From: Nitrospirales bacterium
Lineage (GTDB): Bacteria > Nitrospirota > Nitrospiria > Nitrospirales > UBA8639
Direction: 5' to 3'
NCBI GenBank assembly: GCA_007570995.1
Contig: RKSG01000182.1
Span: forward strand, 1-45,604
Length of the DNA: 45,604 bases
Of this stretch, positions 5,747-24,492 are shown piece after piece. Position 1 is the first letter of the stretch. Each line of letters starts with the position of its first letter. The notes under the pieces are model-generated. The model made no database searches and was not told the origin of the DNA. It saw only the letters and a program-made list of their open reading frames with translations. Position numbers and translations under genes: made by a program.

Positions 5747-6814
5747 GTGAGACCAACCCCTGACCCGCGTTCCCGACCCGCTCCGGTGCATGGCCTGCCG
5801 TTTGCCCGTAGAACCCGCAGCCCACTCCCCTGGTTGAGCCCGTTGCGTTTCACGCTCGCGATGCTGGTGTGGCTCGGGCCGGCACTGTGGCTGCTCGGAT
5901 GGTGGTCACCGGCGGCTCGAGCCCATCCCATCGGCCAACTCCAGCAACCCCAGTCGTTTATCGCCCACCCGGCGGGTGACTCCTATTTCATCGCCAATGC
6001 CAACGGCGAACCCGGTCGGGCCGATCAAAACGGTTTCATCTCCAAACTCGATCAGCATGGCGCTGTGCTGGATTTGCACTTTATTCAAGGTGGCAGAGGG
6101 GACGCCATTCTCCATTCCCCCCATGGCATGGCTGTCGTCGGCGACACCCTCTACGTGGCTGACATCAACGTCATCCGTGGATTTCACGTCGTATCCGGCA
6201 AGCCCGTGGTCACCGTTTCGTTTCAGCCGTTGCAGGTCGAGGCCTTGACGGATCTGATTGCCGACGGCGCCGGGCAGCTCTTTGTCCTGGATACGGGGGG
6301 GGATGCCATTTACCAGGTTGATCCGCACCATCATCACGCCGTGTCCCTCTATGTCCAACATGAGGATCTGGCATCGCCGCGAGGCATCGCCGTTCATCCA
6401 AAGTCTGGCCGGCTGCTGGTGGCCAGCCTGGCCCACGGGACGGTGATGGAAATTGCGGAAGATCGCACCATCACCGAAGTCATTTCCAATTCACTGTTGA
6501 CCGGCCGGTTTCAGAATTTAAGCGGCATTGACTTCGATCAATTCGGCAGCATGTATCTGTCGGATCTGACGGCGGGGAAAATCTGGCAGGTCTATCCCGA
6601 CCTGTCCATGCATGTCATCGCCGAGTTCCTGATCTCACCCGCCACCGTCAAAATTGACCGTCGGAAGCATAGAATTCTGGTGCCCTACCTGTACGCCAAT
6701 GGCGCCGAGATGAACGGGCTGGAACGCCCGATCAATACCGGCACGTCCAAGAAACGCCGGCGGACGCTTGCCGACTATGGCCTGGGCGGGTTCCAGGAAG
6801 ACACGCAACCATGA
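5747..6814 (+). CDS. Exported NHL/SMP-30-like beta-propeller protein
   Basis: The 355-aa product has an arginine-rich start, a hydrophobic segment near residues 36-52 (LAMLVWLGPALWLLGWW) and an ARAH site that looks like a signal-peptidase junction near residue 60, so export is likely. The rest is a run of repeated strands of the form 'SPHGMAVVGDTLYVAD', 'DLIADGAGQLFVLDTGG', 'SPRGIAVHPKSGRLLVASL' and 'LSGIDFDQFGSMYLSDL', the pattern of NHL or SMP-30/gluconolactonase propellers. The substrate is unknown. The GTG at 5747 follows GTAGGA, but this overlaps the candidate -10 box; GTG 5786 is an alternative start. The stop overlaps the next gene's ATG (ATGA), so the two are probably co-translated. 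Confidence 0.7.
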   Translation: MRPTPDPRSRPAPVHGLPFARRTRSPLPWLSPLRFTLAMLVWLGPALWLLGWWSPAARAHPIGQLQQPQSFIAHPAGDSYFIANANGEPGRADQNGFISKLDQHGAVLDLHFIQGGRGDAILHSPHGMAVVGDTLYVADINVIRGFHVVSGKPVVTVSFQPLQVEALTDLIADGAGQLFVLDTGGDAIYQVDPHHHHAVSLYVQHEDLASPRGIAVHPKSGRLLVASLAHGTVMEIAEDRTITEVISNSLLTGRFQNLSGIDFDQFGSMYLSDLTAGKIWQVYPDLSMHVIAEFLISPATVKIDRRKHRILVPYLYANGAEMNGLERPINTGTSKKRRRTLADYGLGGFQEDTQP

Positions 6815-7488
6815 GCCGCTGCGTCTATTGCGGGGCACGCAAGGGAAAACGTCCATGCCCGGCGTTGAATGGCTCCCTATGCAGCCAGTGTTGCGGGACA
6901 CACCGCCTGGTCAGTATTCCCTGCCACACCGATTGCGCGTACCTGGACAACAACGTGGCCTATCAGCAAAAACGTGTCGGGGATCAGTTTGAACAGCAAC
7001 GGCGGGCACTCTACAAAGAACTGCTCGAACAATGGGGTGAGAAAGCCGTGGAGGTGTTGTACTTTCTTGAAGCCGTCACGTTCAAACATTTCCACGCGCG
7101 GAAGGATGCGCAGGATGGAGAGGTCATTGCAGCCATTCAGACGTTGCGTCGCTCATTCAGCCCCATCCACATCCCGGAGGGAATCGCCCCACCGTTCACC
7201 GAATCGCTCAAGAAGGAATTTCAGGCGTTCATGCAAGGCGAAAAAGCCGATACGCAGCTTGTGAATGCGGTGCTGGATCGAGGGGTGACGTTCATGACCG
7301 GATTCTCAGGCACAGGGCTGCGTTCCAATCGCTTTCTCAACGGGCTGATCGGCTTCCTGAAGAGCCGGTATCCAGAGACGGCCGAACAACTGGCGACACT
7401 CGGCAAGACAGGGGGACAGATTCTTCTCCCGGGCGGCACCTCACCCCAAGACAGGGGGGCACCCTTCCATCCCGGTTCACACGGGTAA
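6811..7488 (+). CDS. Cysteine-rich (zinc-ribbon-like) hypothetical protein
   Basis: The 225-aa product begins MSRCVYCGARKGKRPCP followed by CSQCCGTHR and CHTDC, giving eight cysteines and two histidines in the first 44 residues, which suggests one or two structural zinc sites. The rest is mainly helical and charged (QFEQQRRALYKELLEQWGEKAVEVLYFLE) with no recognisable catalytic motif. The last 30 residues (GGTSPQDRGAPFHPGSHG) look disordered. It starts in the ATGA overlap with the exported beta-propeller gene, and ends 29 bp from the convergent peptidyl-prolyl isomerase gene. I do not recognise a characterised family; a role in nucleic-acid or protein binding would be a guess. Confidence 0.7.
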   Translation: MSRCVYCGARKGKRPCPALNGSLCSQCCGTHRLVSIPCHTDCAYLDNNVAYQQKRVGDQFEQQRRALYKELLEQWGEKAVEVLYFLEAVTFKHFHARKDAQDGEVIAAIQTLRRSFSPIHIPEGIAPPFTESLKKEFQAFMQGEKADTQLVNAVLDRGVTFMTGFSGTGLRSNRFLNGLIGFLKSRYPETAEQLATLGKTGGQILLPGGTSPQDRGAPFHPGSHG

Positions 7489-19561: not shown

Positions 19562-20131
19562 CTACAGCAGGGCGGGGCCATTGTAGCGATTCATCGCCTC
19601 CTGCACGCCATGCAACACCACACATTCCAGGCTTTCAACCGCCCGGGCCATGACGGGTTCAAGATTGTCCCGTTCTGCATGTGTAAAGGGTGCTAACACA
19701 AAAGCGGCGGGATCCACACCGGATGCGGGACGTCCGATTCCTATTTTCAGACGAACGAACTCATCGGTGCCCAGAGCCGTGCATACCGACCGTACACCAT
19801 TATGGCCACCGCTTCTCCCTCCAGACCTTACGCGAAGACGCCCGACGGGCAGATCCAGATCATCATGCACCACGATCACGTCGCGACTCCGCGCGCCATG
19901 CACCCGGCACACGGCCTCCACGGCCTTGCCGGACACGTTCATATAGGTATCAGGAAACACAATCACAATCGGGTGACCGTGGATCAGGCCGGTTCCCTGT
20001 TGCACCAAGCCCTGTCGTGTGAGGGAGACCGACCAGCGAGCCGCCGCGCACGCCACGACCCTTCGTCCGATGTTATGACGAGTCGCGGCATACTCACAGC
20101 CGGGATTCCCAAGTCCGACAAGAAGAGTTAT
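19562..20131 (-). CDS. pth: Peptidyl-tRNA hydrolase, start codon not identifiable
   Basis: Pth frees stalled peptidyl-tRNA. The frame holds every family mark: VGLGNPG and RHN at the N-terminus (the catalytic Asn and His), FPDTYMNVSG, VHDDLDLPVG with the catalytic Asp, and SGGHNGVRS with the second Asn. Yet no ATG, GTG or TTG precedes them: after an in-frame stop at 20152 the codons are ATC AAG TGG GAC CAA AAA ATA ACT CTT CTT GTC. The first in-frame GTG (20056) would remove both catalytic Asn and His. I placed the start at ATA 20131, where the frame meets the rplY stop; true initiation may use a non-standard codon, a -1 slip from rplY at its AAAAAATAA end, or the sequence has an indel. Confidence 0.85.
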   Translation of the reverse strand: MTLLVGLGNPGCEYAATRHNIGRRVVACAAARWSVSLTRQGLVQQGTGLIHGHPIVIVFPDTYMNVSGKAVEAVCRVHGARSRDVIVVHDDLDLPVGRLRVRSGGRSGGHNGVRSVCTALGTDEFVRLKIGIGRPASGVDPAAFVLAPFTHAERDNLEPVMARAVESLECVVLHGVQEAMNRYNGPALL

Positions 20132-20805
20132 TTTTTGGTCCCACTTGATTCAGCGGCAGGAACGCCCTCGGCAGTTGCTGACGCTGCCGCGGCAGGAGCA
20201 CCTTCCGATGTCAGCATGGCGGACAACTTCGCTTCGGAAATCGGCATGGTCACATTGACAACCATCCCATCAAGATCGTCAAGGACCTTGATGCCCTCGT
20301 CGACATTGAGATCACGAACATGAATGCCCTGATTCACTTCCAGTGCCGACGCGTCCACCTCGATATGTTCCGGAATGGCACGAGGCAAACATTCAATATG
20401 TAACTCTCGCGTGGGTTGATGCAACACCCCCTTGTCACGCTTCACCCCAAGCGGGACCCCGCCTGTGACATGAACGGGCACTTTCACGCGAACCGGTTTG
20501 TCCATGGCCACTTCCAGCAAATCAACATGCATCATCAACCCGCTCACAGGATCCCGTTGAACGTCCTGAATCACGACGGTGCGTTGCTGAACTTGACCAC
20601 CATCGTCAATGCTCAGGGCAATCAGCCCCGTCCCACCGGCCTGCGTGACCAGTATTTTCTGAATCGCTCTGGGGTCAAGTTGGATCAAATGAGACTGTCC
20701 CTGGCCATACATCACAGCGGGCACCTGTCCCGCCCTCCGGATCTGCCGGCCCGCTCCCTTACCCGATTTCGTTCTGACTGTTGCTTCAGCGACAAACTGC
20801 ATCAC
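20128..20805 (-). CDS. rplY: 50S ribosomal protein L25 (CTC type)
   Basis: The 225-aa protein has the N-terminal L25 domain binding 5S rRNA (ARTKSGKGAGRQIRRAGQVPAVMYG-like start near residues 11-34) followed by the TL5/CTC second domain (VPVHVTGGVPLGVKRDKGVL near 108). The last 25 residues are Ala/Glu-rich. It ends ACC AAA AAA TAA, and the pth frame crosses this stop in the -1 register. The rplY-pth pair is conserved in many bacteria and follows prs here. ATG 20805 or 20802 is the start. Confidence 0.95.
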   Translation of the reverse strand: MMQFVAEATVRTKSGKGAGRQIRRAGQVPAVMYGQGQSHLIQLDPRAIQKILVTQAGGTGLIALSIDDGGQVQQRTVVIQDVQRDPVSGLMMHVDLLEVAMDKPVRVKVPVHVTGGVPLGVKRDKGVLHQPTRELHIECLPRAIPEHIEVDASALEVNQGIHVRDLNVDEGIKVLDDLDGMVVNVTMPISEAKLSAMLTSEGAPAAAASATAEGVPAAESSGTKK

Positions 20806-21887: not shown

Positions 21888-22055
21888 ACGAGGCTTTCCA
21901 AGGAGGGGTGCAGTCATCAAGAACACGGTGAGTCAACAGAGGAACTATGTAGGCCATCCGGGTGATCACTGTCAACGCTGAACGTCGTCGCCACCCGATT
22001 GCGCGACCGGTACGGCCCCACAAACACGGAACGGCGTGTCCTTCCCCTGTCCTCC
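21888..22055. other. Upstream region of prs without gene
   Basis: This half of the 350-bp prs-ispE spacer precedes the dispersed repeat. I see no tRNA, ORF of note or clear promoter; it should hold the prs promoter. Confidence 0.3.
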
Positions 22056-22226
22056 TGCATGCCCCTGGCGTCCCCCCTGGATTCCCGCTCAACTCACTGC
22101 GGGAATGCATGCCCCTGGCGCTCCGGGCGACCAGGGGACGGAGGGGGGCTTGCCCTTTTTTGTCATTCCTGCGAAAGCCCTGGCGCTCCGGGCGACCAGG
22201 GGACGGAGGGGGAGCTTGACCAGGGG
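22056..22226 (+). repeat. Dispersed composite repeat R1 (tandem double copy)
   Basis: The fullest intergenic copy: a left GCATGCCCCTGGCG edge, the hairpin module A (GATTCCCGC...GCGGGAAT), module B (CCCCTGG...CCAGGGG), ACGGAGGGGGG, then a fragment TGTCATTCCTGCGAAAG belonging to the widespread GTCATTCCTGCG class, then a second module B and TTGACCAGGGG. It fills the spacer just beyond the ispE stop. Confidence 0.9.
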
Positions 22227-22238
22227 ATGATGCATGAC

Positions 22239-23117
22239 TCATCCACGCTGTAAAGAAGGCCCGACCAACAGCCGGTACCCTGGCGTTCCGGCAAACTCGT
22301 CCCTGGCCCGTACCGCACTGCGCCGATCCGGAAACACGCCAAACACGGTCGCCCCACTGCCTGACACCAGAGCACCCTCGGCACCCGCCTGCAGTAACGT
22401 GCGCTTGATGTTGGCCAACACGGGATAGTCACTGAACAGGATTGTTTCAAAATCGTTCTCAAGGCAGGCGATCAGCTGGTGCCAGGACAACGACGACGCA
22501 CGTTCCAACGCAAGCAGGGTGTCAGGCAAGGACAAGACGGGCCGTCTGCTCCTCTCCAGTCGCCTGTAAGCCTCACCGGTAGCAATGGGAAACCCAGGGT
22601 TCACCAGGACAATCCACCTGACGTCTTCAAGGACGTGCGGCATGACCCGTTCCCCCCACCCCCGCACAATCGCGGTCGGGGCTTCAAGGAAAAAAGGCAC
22701 GTCACTGCCCACGGCCTGACCCAGTTTCGCCATGTCGCTGCTGGTCCAACCAAGCCCCAACAGATGATTGAGGCCCATGATCGTCGACGCGGCGTCACTG
22801 CTTCCGCCACCCAGGCCCGCCGCAACCGGTATGCCCTTTGTCAGGTTCAGCGCAACGCCCATGGACACACCAGCCTGCTGCAACACCAGTTCGGCAGCCC
22901 GATACACCACATTGCTGACCGGTGCGGCCAGGGCGTTGTCCGAACAAGTCAGGTGAATCCCTTCAAACGCATCCGTGACGCGAATGGTTAGTTCATCCAC
23001 CACGCCAATCGTTTGCATCAGCGACCACAGGGCATGATACCCGTTAGGAAGTCGCTGAAAAATCTTCAGCACGAGATTGATCTTGGCCGGCGGATGCAAC
23101 CGTAGCGAACGATCCAT
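22239..23117 (-). CDS. ispE: 4-diphosphocytidyl-2-C-methyl-D-erythritol kinase
   Basis: IspE phosphorylates CDP-methylerythritol in the MEP isoprenoid pathway. The product contains PPAKINLVLKI near the start, the GHMP-kinase ATP loop VAAGLGGGSSDAAST near residue 95, VGSDVPFFL near 135 and the C-terminal VSGSGATVFGVF. I chose ATG 23117 (292 aa, MDRSLRLHPPAKINL), since family members start only a few residues ahead of PAKINL. The frame is open to ATG 23159, which lies on the edge of dispersed repeat R2, so the repeat may have moved the real start or its ribosome site. Confidence 0.93.
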   Translation of the reverse strand: MDRSLRLHPPAKINLVLKIFQRLPNGYHALWSLMQTIGVVDELTIRVTDAFEGIHLTCSDNALAAPVSNVVYRAAELVLQQAGVSMGVALNLTKGIPVAAGLGGGSSDAASTIMGLNHLLGLGWTSSDMAKLGQAVGSDVPFFLEAPTAIVRGWGERVMPHVLEDVRWIVLVNPGFPIATGEAYRRLERSRRPVLSLPDTLLALERASSLSWHQLIACLENDFETILFSDYPVLANIKRTLLQAGAEGALVSGSGATVFGVFPDRRSAVRARDEFAGTPGYRLLVGPSLQRG

Positions 23118-23155
23118 GTTGTTCAATGAGACATTCACGGCCATCGGACACACAG

Positions 23156-23277
23156 GCATGCCCCTGGCGCAGCCCCCCCTGGATTCCCGCTCAACTCACT
23201 GCGGGAATGCATGCCCCTGGCGCCCCGTGCGACCAGGGGACGGAGGGGGGGGCTGTTGACCAGGGGACGAGGGGGCT
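23156..23277 (+). repeat. Dispersed composite repeat R2
   Basis: A complete copy (left edge, module A, module B, ACGGAGGGGGG, GTTGACCAGGGG) that fills the whole spacer between the gspF stop and ispE and touches the longest possible ispE start codon. Confidence 0.9.
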
Positions 23278-23280
23278 TTA

Positions 23281-24492
23281 TCACTCAAACAGAGAGCCCA
23301 TCAGGAAAATCGGAAGATACATGGCCACGATAATAAACCCAATGCCCAGGCCCAACACAACAATAATCAGCGGCTCCAGCAGAGCGGCGAACGCATTCAT
23401 GTCGCGATCCACTTCACGTGCGTAGAGGTCCGCGATTTTCTCCAACGCCTCGTCGAGGCTGCCGGTCGACTCGCCAACGGCCACCATGTTGGGCACCAGG
23501 GCGGGAAACATGCCGGACCGCGCCAGCGGGTCAGCCAGGGTATGCCCTTCACGCACACTCACCGTTGCTTCCGCCAATGCCCGTTCCATGGCAAGCAACC
23601 CGGACACCCGTTGGGCAATTTCCAGACCGCGTAAAATCGGCACGCCACTCCCCAGCAACGCCCCCAACGTTCTCGTAACATGCACAACGGCCACGTTGCG
23701 CCACAGCCTGCCCACCACCGGCACGCGCAACAGAGCATGCTCCACCAGCCATCGCCCCGACGGTGTCTTCACCCACAACCGTGCCCCAAGTCCAAGGACA
23801 ACCGCGCTGACCACCACGGCGAACCAGTGACGCCGGATCCATTGACTCATCTCCAGAACCACGGCCGTCGGCCAGGGCAGGGCGTCGCCCCAGTCGGCAA
23901 ACATGGTTCCAAACATGGGGATCACCCAGATGAGCAACACCCAGAACACGAGAACGGCCACGATCGTCACAAACAGGGGATAGGCTAACGCCAGCTTGAC
24001 CTGTTGTTTGAGTCGCCACACCTTGTCCGTATGCTCGGCCAGTCGGTGAAGTGTCTTGTCCAGCATCCCGCCTTCTTCGCCGGCTTCGATCATACTGACA
24101 TACCAGGACGTGAACACCTCGGGATGGCCGCGCAGCGCACCGGACAGAGACGATCCGGACTCCACTTTCTGTTTCACAGCACGAATGATCTTCTGGAAGG
24201 CTGACGAAGACACATGTGTCGCCAGCATCTCGAGACTCTGTGACAGAGGCACACCGGCTTTGATCGTGGTTTCCAGTTGATAGGTGAAGATCACCAGATC
24301 TTTTTGAGGGATGCGGGTCCGTTCAGGGAGTGACCACCAGGCAACCCGGGCCTCGGGTTTTTCACGGAGGCGGGTAACAAACAACTCGCGTTGTCGCAAG
24401 ACCCGGAACGCGGCACTTTGGTTCGCAGCATCCACTTCTCCCTGCTGTATGCTCCCCTGACGGGTCTTCCCGCGATAGACAAAGGTCGGCAT
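23281..24492 (-). CDS. Type II secretion / type IV pilus inner-membrane platform protein (GspF/PilC)
   Basis: The 403-aa protein starts MPTFVYRGKTRQG and holds two T2SSF domains: the first around residues 70-190 (KDLVIFTYQLETTIKAGVPLSQSLEML) and the second around 270-395 (ALLGSGVPILRGLEIAQRV), with hydrophobic segments near 170-190, 220-240 and 375-395. GspF/PilC anchors the assembly ATPase in the inner membrane. It lies 110 bp after the ATPase gene. With no pilin or secretin in view, pilus and secretion systems cannot be told apart. ATG 24492 gives the canonical N-terminus. Confidence 0.92.
   Translation of the reverse strand: MPTFVYRGKTRQGSIQQGEVDAANQSAAFRVLRQRELFVTRLREKPEARVAWWSLPERTRIPQKDLVIFTYQLETTIKAGVPLSQSLEMLATHVSSSAFQKIIRAVKQKVESGSSLSGALRGHPEVFTSWYVSMIEAGEEGGMLDKTLHRLAEHTDKVWRLKQQVKLALAYPLFVTIVAVLVFWVLLIWVIPMFGTMFADWGDALPWPTAVVLEMSQWIRRHWFAVVVSAVVLGLGARLWVKTPSGRWLVEHALLRVPVVGRLWRNVAVVHVTRTLGALLGSGVPILRGLEIAQRVSGLLAMERALAEATVSVREGHTLADPLARSGMFPALVPNMVAVGESTGSLDEALEKIADLYAREVDRDMNAFAALLEPLIIVVLGLGIGFIIVAMYLPIFLMGSLFE

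Follow-up and report, generated by a model that had tools for sequence, protein, structure and literature searches.

The window analysed here, i.e. the whole stretch of 45,604 nt, stems from contig RKSG01000182.1 of a Nitrospirales bacterium (GCA_007570995.1). The genome is a 1.98-Mb MAG from an uncultured Nitrospirales genus, of which 14 genomes were compared (G000 being the genome of the window). On the minus strand the window carries rplY, directly followed by pth. The latter encodes peptidyl-tRNA hydrolase (Pth), an essential enzyme that acts in ribosome recycling and recycles peptidyl-tRNA. Table 1 shows the features of this junction, together with their state in G002 (MEX2-MAG7, JAHRAQ010000004), a separately assembled MAG of a sister species.

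Table 1. Features at the rplY-pth junction (window coordinates).
Feature	Position	Strand	Remarks
rplY (bL25, Ctc-type)	20128..20805	-	TIGR00731 143 bits, cut-off 73.1
TGA, upstream limit of the pth frame	20150..20152	-	Read from the sequence
Weak Shine-Dalgarno-like GGGA, 7 nt 5' of AUA	20139..20142	-	GGGT in G002, equal spacing
AAAAAATAA, two rplY Lys codons plus stop	20128..20136	-	Only place for a -1 slip; identical in G002
Proposed AUA start, overlapping the rplY stop as AUAA	20129..20131	-	Codon 5 before GLGNPG; kept in G002
Lineage-specific net 7-nt deletion, ancestral TTG lost	20120..20129	-	TAACTCTTGCGTGTTATTGTCGGA in relatives, TAACTCTTCTTGTCGGA here
pth from the proposed AUA	19562..20131	-	Product M-TLLVGLGNPG..., 189 aa; stop at 19564-19562

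Downstream of the TGA the pth frame reads ATC AAG TGG GAC CAA AAA ATA ACT CTT CTT GTC GGA CTT GGG AAT. The open frame counts 195 codons and has no internal stop, and its product clearly belongs to the Pth family: it matches the TIGR00447 equivalog with 175.5 bits (cut-off 100, residues 3-169) and PF01195 with 198 bits (positions 1-183), and has homologues in the PDB. The motifs GNPG (Asn), TRHN (His), MN, HDDLDLP (Asp) and GGHNG are all present, in agreement with an earlier note on this DNA that described the frame as intact with its catalytic residues. The same note reported that no ATG, GTG or TTG lies between the upstream stop at 20152 and VGLGNPG, and our base-level reading agrees. The first standard start codon in the frame is a GTG at 20056, past the catalytic Asn and His; it was rejected as a start because both residues would be lost. 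Likewise, no ATG, GTG or TTG able to yield a full Pth is found in G002. A second pth gene, which had been held to count against an unusual start, was also looked for: the PF01195 search shows a single copy in the genome, and the archaeal-type PTH2 is absent from both the genome and the genus.

A scan of the window, restricted to 39 non-overlapping conserved ORFs, shows pth to be the only real gene missing a usable standard start. The ORF at 6673-7485 was also flagged for a late start and then discarded, its ATG at 6811 overlapping the end of the preceding gene. Elsewhere in the window, two intergenic segments (21960-22250 and 23077-23300) give the same spurious peptide (DSRSTHCGNACPWR...RPGDGGG) and resemble dispersed repeat copies. 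A survey of pth starts, covering the retrieved loci rather than all bacteria, comprised 153 genes from many phyla. Four of these are without any in-frame standard start, and all four are from Nitrospirales. A second Pth-like match was seen in one genome, G050 (C2:195791-196309), inside a 639-aa open frame.

The 3' end of rplY reads GGG ACC AAA AAA TAA, with the stop at 20130-20128. As had been pointed out before, a -1 shift at this place leads into ATA ACT CTT CTT GTC of pth. A -1 frameshift would therefore join the pth frame exactly where initiation at AUA would. For AAAAAATAA, one occurrence is seen in the window where 0.06 would be expected; runs of A6 or T6 alone are frequent there (29 start positions, some overlapping). 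The suggestion that another number of A residues would restore a standard start proved impossible, because ATA ACT CTT CTT GTC on the 3' side of the tract contains none. A seventh A would fuse rplY and pth in frame.

The same arrangement recurs in the sister species. The G002 junction reads GGG TCC AAA AAA TAA C..., and a standard start is found nowhere in its pth frame. In a tree of rplY and pth both genomes are split from the rest with 99% support. Their Pth proteins are 67% identical, and the genes differ by a dN of 0.22 and a dS of 0.84. Hence the arrangement is old, and pth is under purifying selection. All differences 3' of ATA are synonymous in the pth frame (ACT/ACG, CTT/CTG), and those 5' of it fit the rplY frame. 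A base miscounted in the A tract, as the earlier note had considered, is effectively ruled out by this separately assembled copy. More generally, errors of sequencing or assembly are a highly improbable explanation, and so is decay of pth. Both genomes are MAGs (completeness 90-92%), which leaves some room for such errors, but the junction is common to two separate assemblies of different species, and pth is intact, present as the sole copy and under purifying selection.

Alignment of the junction for the 14 genus members shows how the start was lost. Six of them (G003, G004, G006, G007, G009 and G010) have a TTG start that is in frame with rplY and lies 3 nt past its stop, as in TAA CTC TTG CGT GTT ATT GTC GGA, and most of the outgroups examined from other genera show the same arrangement. 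The 7-nt deletion is common to G000 and G002. The junction in the window now reads TAACTCTT-CTTGTCGGA, the TTG is gone and pth has shifted to the -1 frame relative to rplY. A separate 2-nt deletion, by which the TTG is also lost, is found in G001, G005, G008, G011, G012 and G013 (loci L031, L020, L033, L034, L013 and L035). The replacement start in the latter lineage is likely a GTG that overlaps rplY, 6 codons upstream.

The position of ATA in the window coincides with the usual start of the gene. Counting back from GLGNPG, codon 5 is TTG in 73, GTG in 14, ATA in 3 and another codon in 9 of 99 Nitrospirales pth genes. When only unambiguous genes are considered, i.e. the 69 with a single possible start nearby, codon 5 is the start in 62 (48 TTG, 14 GTG). 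ATA occupies this conserved position in both species, so that initiation there would preserve the normal N-terminus and length: the protein would begin with M-T-L-L-VGLGNPG, as compared to M-R-V-I-VGLGNPG in relatives. The N-terminal peptide expected from such a start is (M)TLLVGLGNPGCEYAATR. Taken together, we consider it likely that pth initiates at AUA by termination-reinitiation at the rplY stop.

The course of events was probably as follows. In the common ancestor of the window species and G002, the TTG located 3 nt downstream of the rplY stop was lost through the 7-nt deletion. Ribosomes ending rplY would then re-initiate with fMet-tRNA at the AUA located under or next to the stop, perhaps assisted by the weak GGGA or GGGT 7 nt upstream. 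AUA would thus be the codon actually used, and the resulting yield of Pth may be low but sufficient. None of the 99 Nitrospirales pth genes has an ATG start within 12 codons upstream of GLGNPG, which suggests that a weak start is tolerated or even favoured for this gene.

Several observations in other bacteria support this reading. In Staphylococcus aureus AUA starts are found in infC, ccpN and citZ (mapped for infC and ccpN), and AUA reporters of ccpN and citZ yield roughly 10-30% of AUG (PMC13009471). In E. coli, work with a frameshift reporter indicates that an AUA was probably initiated at a low level when a GGG-type Shine-Dalgarno sequence lay 7 nt 5' of it (PMC4066793). For pth, a start at AUA would overlap the stop of a gene on the same strand, as AUAA at 20131-20128; in about 9% of the E. 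coli ORFs the start overlaps the preceding stop (PMC2268962).

A point against AUA initiation is the weak Shine-Dalgarno sequence; those belonging to the experimentally proven AUA codons of S. aureus infC and ccpN are extended. The predicted pairing with a generic anti-Shine-Dalgarno sequence is only -4.5 kcal/mol in the window species and -5.5 kcal/mol in G002, compared to -6.8 to -8.5 kcal/mol for the AUU-type pth genes of g13, a genus discussed below. Strong or extended Shine-Dalgarno sequences are common in proven near-cognate starts, though they are no strict requirement. Furthermore, IF3 acts both against near-cognate starts and against re-initiation without a Shine-Dalgarno sequence, and at the AUA of pth these two penalties would combine. 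The presence of ATA by itself is also weak evidence, since it arises whenever a last sense codon ending in A precedes TAA or TAG.

Among the alternatives, a -1 ribosomal slip at the end of rplY ranks second to AUA initiation, though we regard it as unlikely. With peptidyl-tRNA-Lys on the last AAA and UAA in the A site, the tRNA would re-pair one base back and give a low-level L25-Pth fusion with a junction reading KK-ITLLVGLGNPG.... In favour of such a slip, it is precisely at this point that the frames come together, both species share A6-TAA, and tRNA-Lys(UUU) is prone to slipping. With L25 presumably made in large amounts, slippage of about 1% could suffice. The site, however, does not follow the heptamer X_XXZ_ZZN: in the 0 frame it reads C_AAA_AAA instead of A_AAA_AAN, so that tandem slippage leaves a mismatch in the P site. 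A stimulatory structure is not apparent either, with z values of -0.9 (G000) and 0.0 (G002) against mononucleotide shuffles in a model that does not cover pseudoknots. In E. coli, tetramer motifs lacking a stimulator gave 0.147% frameshifting against a background of 0.112%, and A_AAA was the weakest of the clearly active tetramers even with a pseudoknot (PMC4066793). Moreover, Lys is encoded more often by AAA than by the alternative codon here (105 against 72), so no particular selection has to be invoked for AAA AAA. Among the relatives in the order, rplY and pth were nowhere seen fused in frame. Thus, from the slippage scenario raised in the earlier note the meeting of the frames at A6 stands, but a proper heptamer, an unusually stable downstream RNA and an in-frame relative to go with it were not found. 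The same fusion could in principle arise by transcriptional slippage, with some mRNAs carrying an extra A that brings rplY and pth into one frame. We give this hardly any credence: bacterial RNA polymerase has been shown to slip efficiently on stretches of 9 A or T (PMC5009743), the tract here is A6, and such runs are common in the window.

Initiation could also take place at a different non-standard codon, such as ATC (20149-20147), a CTT, GTC (20119-20117) or, in G002 only, a CTG two codons past ATA. ATC and CTG are listed as starts in NCBI table 11, and a GTC start has been proven for Streptomyces sigR (PMC5472188). Nonetheless, we think it quite improbable that one of these is used. The ATC is absent from G002, which has an ACC-type sequence there, and the CTG of G002 is CTT in the window species. 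A start at GTC or CTT would leave the first beta strand short of residues. ATA alone combines occurrence in both species with near-cognate status and the ancestral position. Out of the two codons originally proposed, ATA or ATC, it is therefore ATA that is best supported.

Similar tendencies are observed in g13, a genus from another family of the order. Two of its species (G039 and G045) have a pth without any in-frame standard start, and in a third (G042) the sole standard candidate is a TTG that shares bases with the rplY stop. ATT GCT after a Shine-Dalgarno sequence is seen in all three (loci L015, L146 and L028, respectively), for example TTAGGAG TACGTTCT ATT in G045 and GGGGAG ATACGTTCA ATT in G042. 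A fourth genome, G048 (L145), has ATC at this position with TTG directly before it. In g13, pth appears to start at AUU after a Shine-Dalgarno sequence (ATC in G048), so that AUH starts seem to have arisen for this gene on two occasions within Nitrospirales. Either drift in a gene with weak expression or selection that keeps its expression low and sensitive to IF3 could lie behind this. One might speculate that selection keeps Nitrospirales pth on weak or IF3-sensitive starts (UUG or GUG in most members, AUA over the rplY stop in the sister pair, and AUU with a Shine-Dalgarno sequence in the family of g13, where infC starts at AUC), so that the Pth supply is tied to ribosomal-protein translation and IF3, but we are rather doubtful about this idea.

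The infC gene itself differs between the two genera. In G042, G039 and G045 (L198, L201 and L202) it starts with ATC after a strong Shine-Dalgarno sequence, whereas in the genus of the window it has a plain ATG start, which suggests that the start-codon autoregulation of IF3 may have been lost there. In G000 and G002 infC was not found, against its presence in all 12 other genus members. Its neighbours in relatives, rplT and thrS, are missing from both genomes too; rplT is present in the other 12 (in G011 a second, partial rplT match is seen at C50:21868-22062, L227). Since these genes are missing as well, the absence is not evidence on IF3. The lack of the thrS/infC/rplT block in both MAGs most likely stems from a gap in assembly or binning that the two have in common, and loss of IF3 as the cause of the AUA start was dropped.

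If AUA initiation is correct, an essential housekeeping enzyme is started at AUA without a strong Shine-Dalgarno sequence, using the stop codon of the preceding gene. The junction would then document, in nature, how a gene acquires a new start codon after losing its own. The order-wide lack of ATG raises the question whether Pth is deliberately kept scarce. There is also a consequence for annotation: as a rule, gene finders consider no starts besides ATG, GTG and TTG, with the result that an essential gene such as pth is truncated or lost.

We know of no reported pth that starts at AUA, and the literature searched, with partial coverage, contains no such report. Related systems do exist. The AUU, AUC and AUA starts of infC, used in IF3 autoregulation, likewise concern a gene of the translation machinery whose AUH start codon is expected to be disfavoured by IF3. 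In that case the gene is regulated by its own product; such feedback is not expected for pth, as to our knowledge Pth does not act on start selection. AUGA and UAAUG overlaps resemble the junction in that, within an operon, the stop of one gene and the start of the next share bases, and expression of the second gene would depend on the first; the start in those overlaps is AUG, whereas here it would be the AUA in AUAA. The -1 frameshifting at A_AAA_AAG in the IS3 family shares an A-rich stretch with handover to the -1 frame, but the pth junction differs by having no proper heptamer, no stimulator that we could find and a stop directly after the A tract. Streptomyces sigR (PMC5472188) also has a non-standard start, one that escapes gene finders and should limit the protein level. 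That start is an IF3-repressed GTC with a strong Shine-Dalgarno sequence and is experimentally proven, whereas pth concerns another codon, a proposed one, in another gene. In S. aureus the AUA genes were mapped experimentally, with extended Shine-Dalgarno sequences for infC and ccpN, as opposed to the weak one of pth, whose proposed AUA overlaps the upstream stop. Still, infC, ccpN and citZ come close to what we propose for pth: a bacterial AUA start that yields a normal protein, with lowered translation in the case of S. aureus (PMC13009471).
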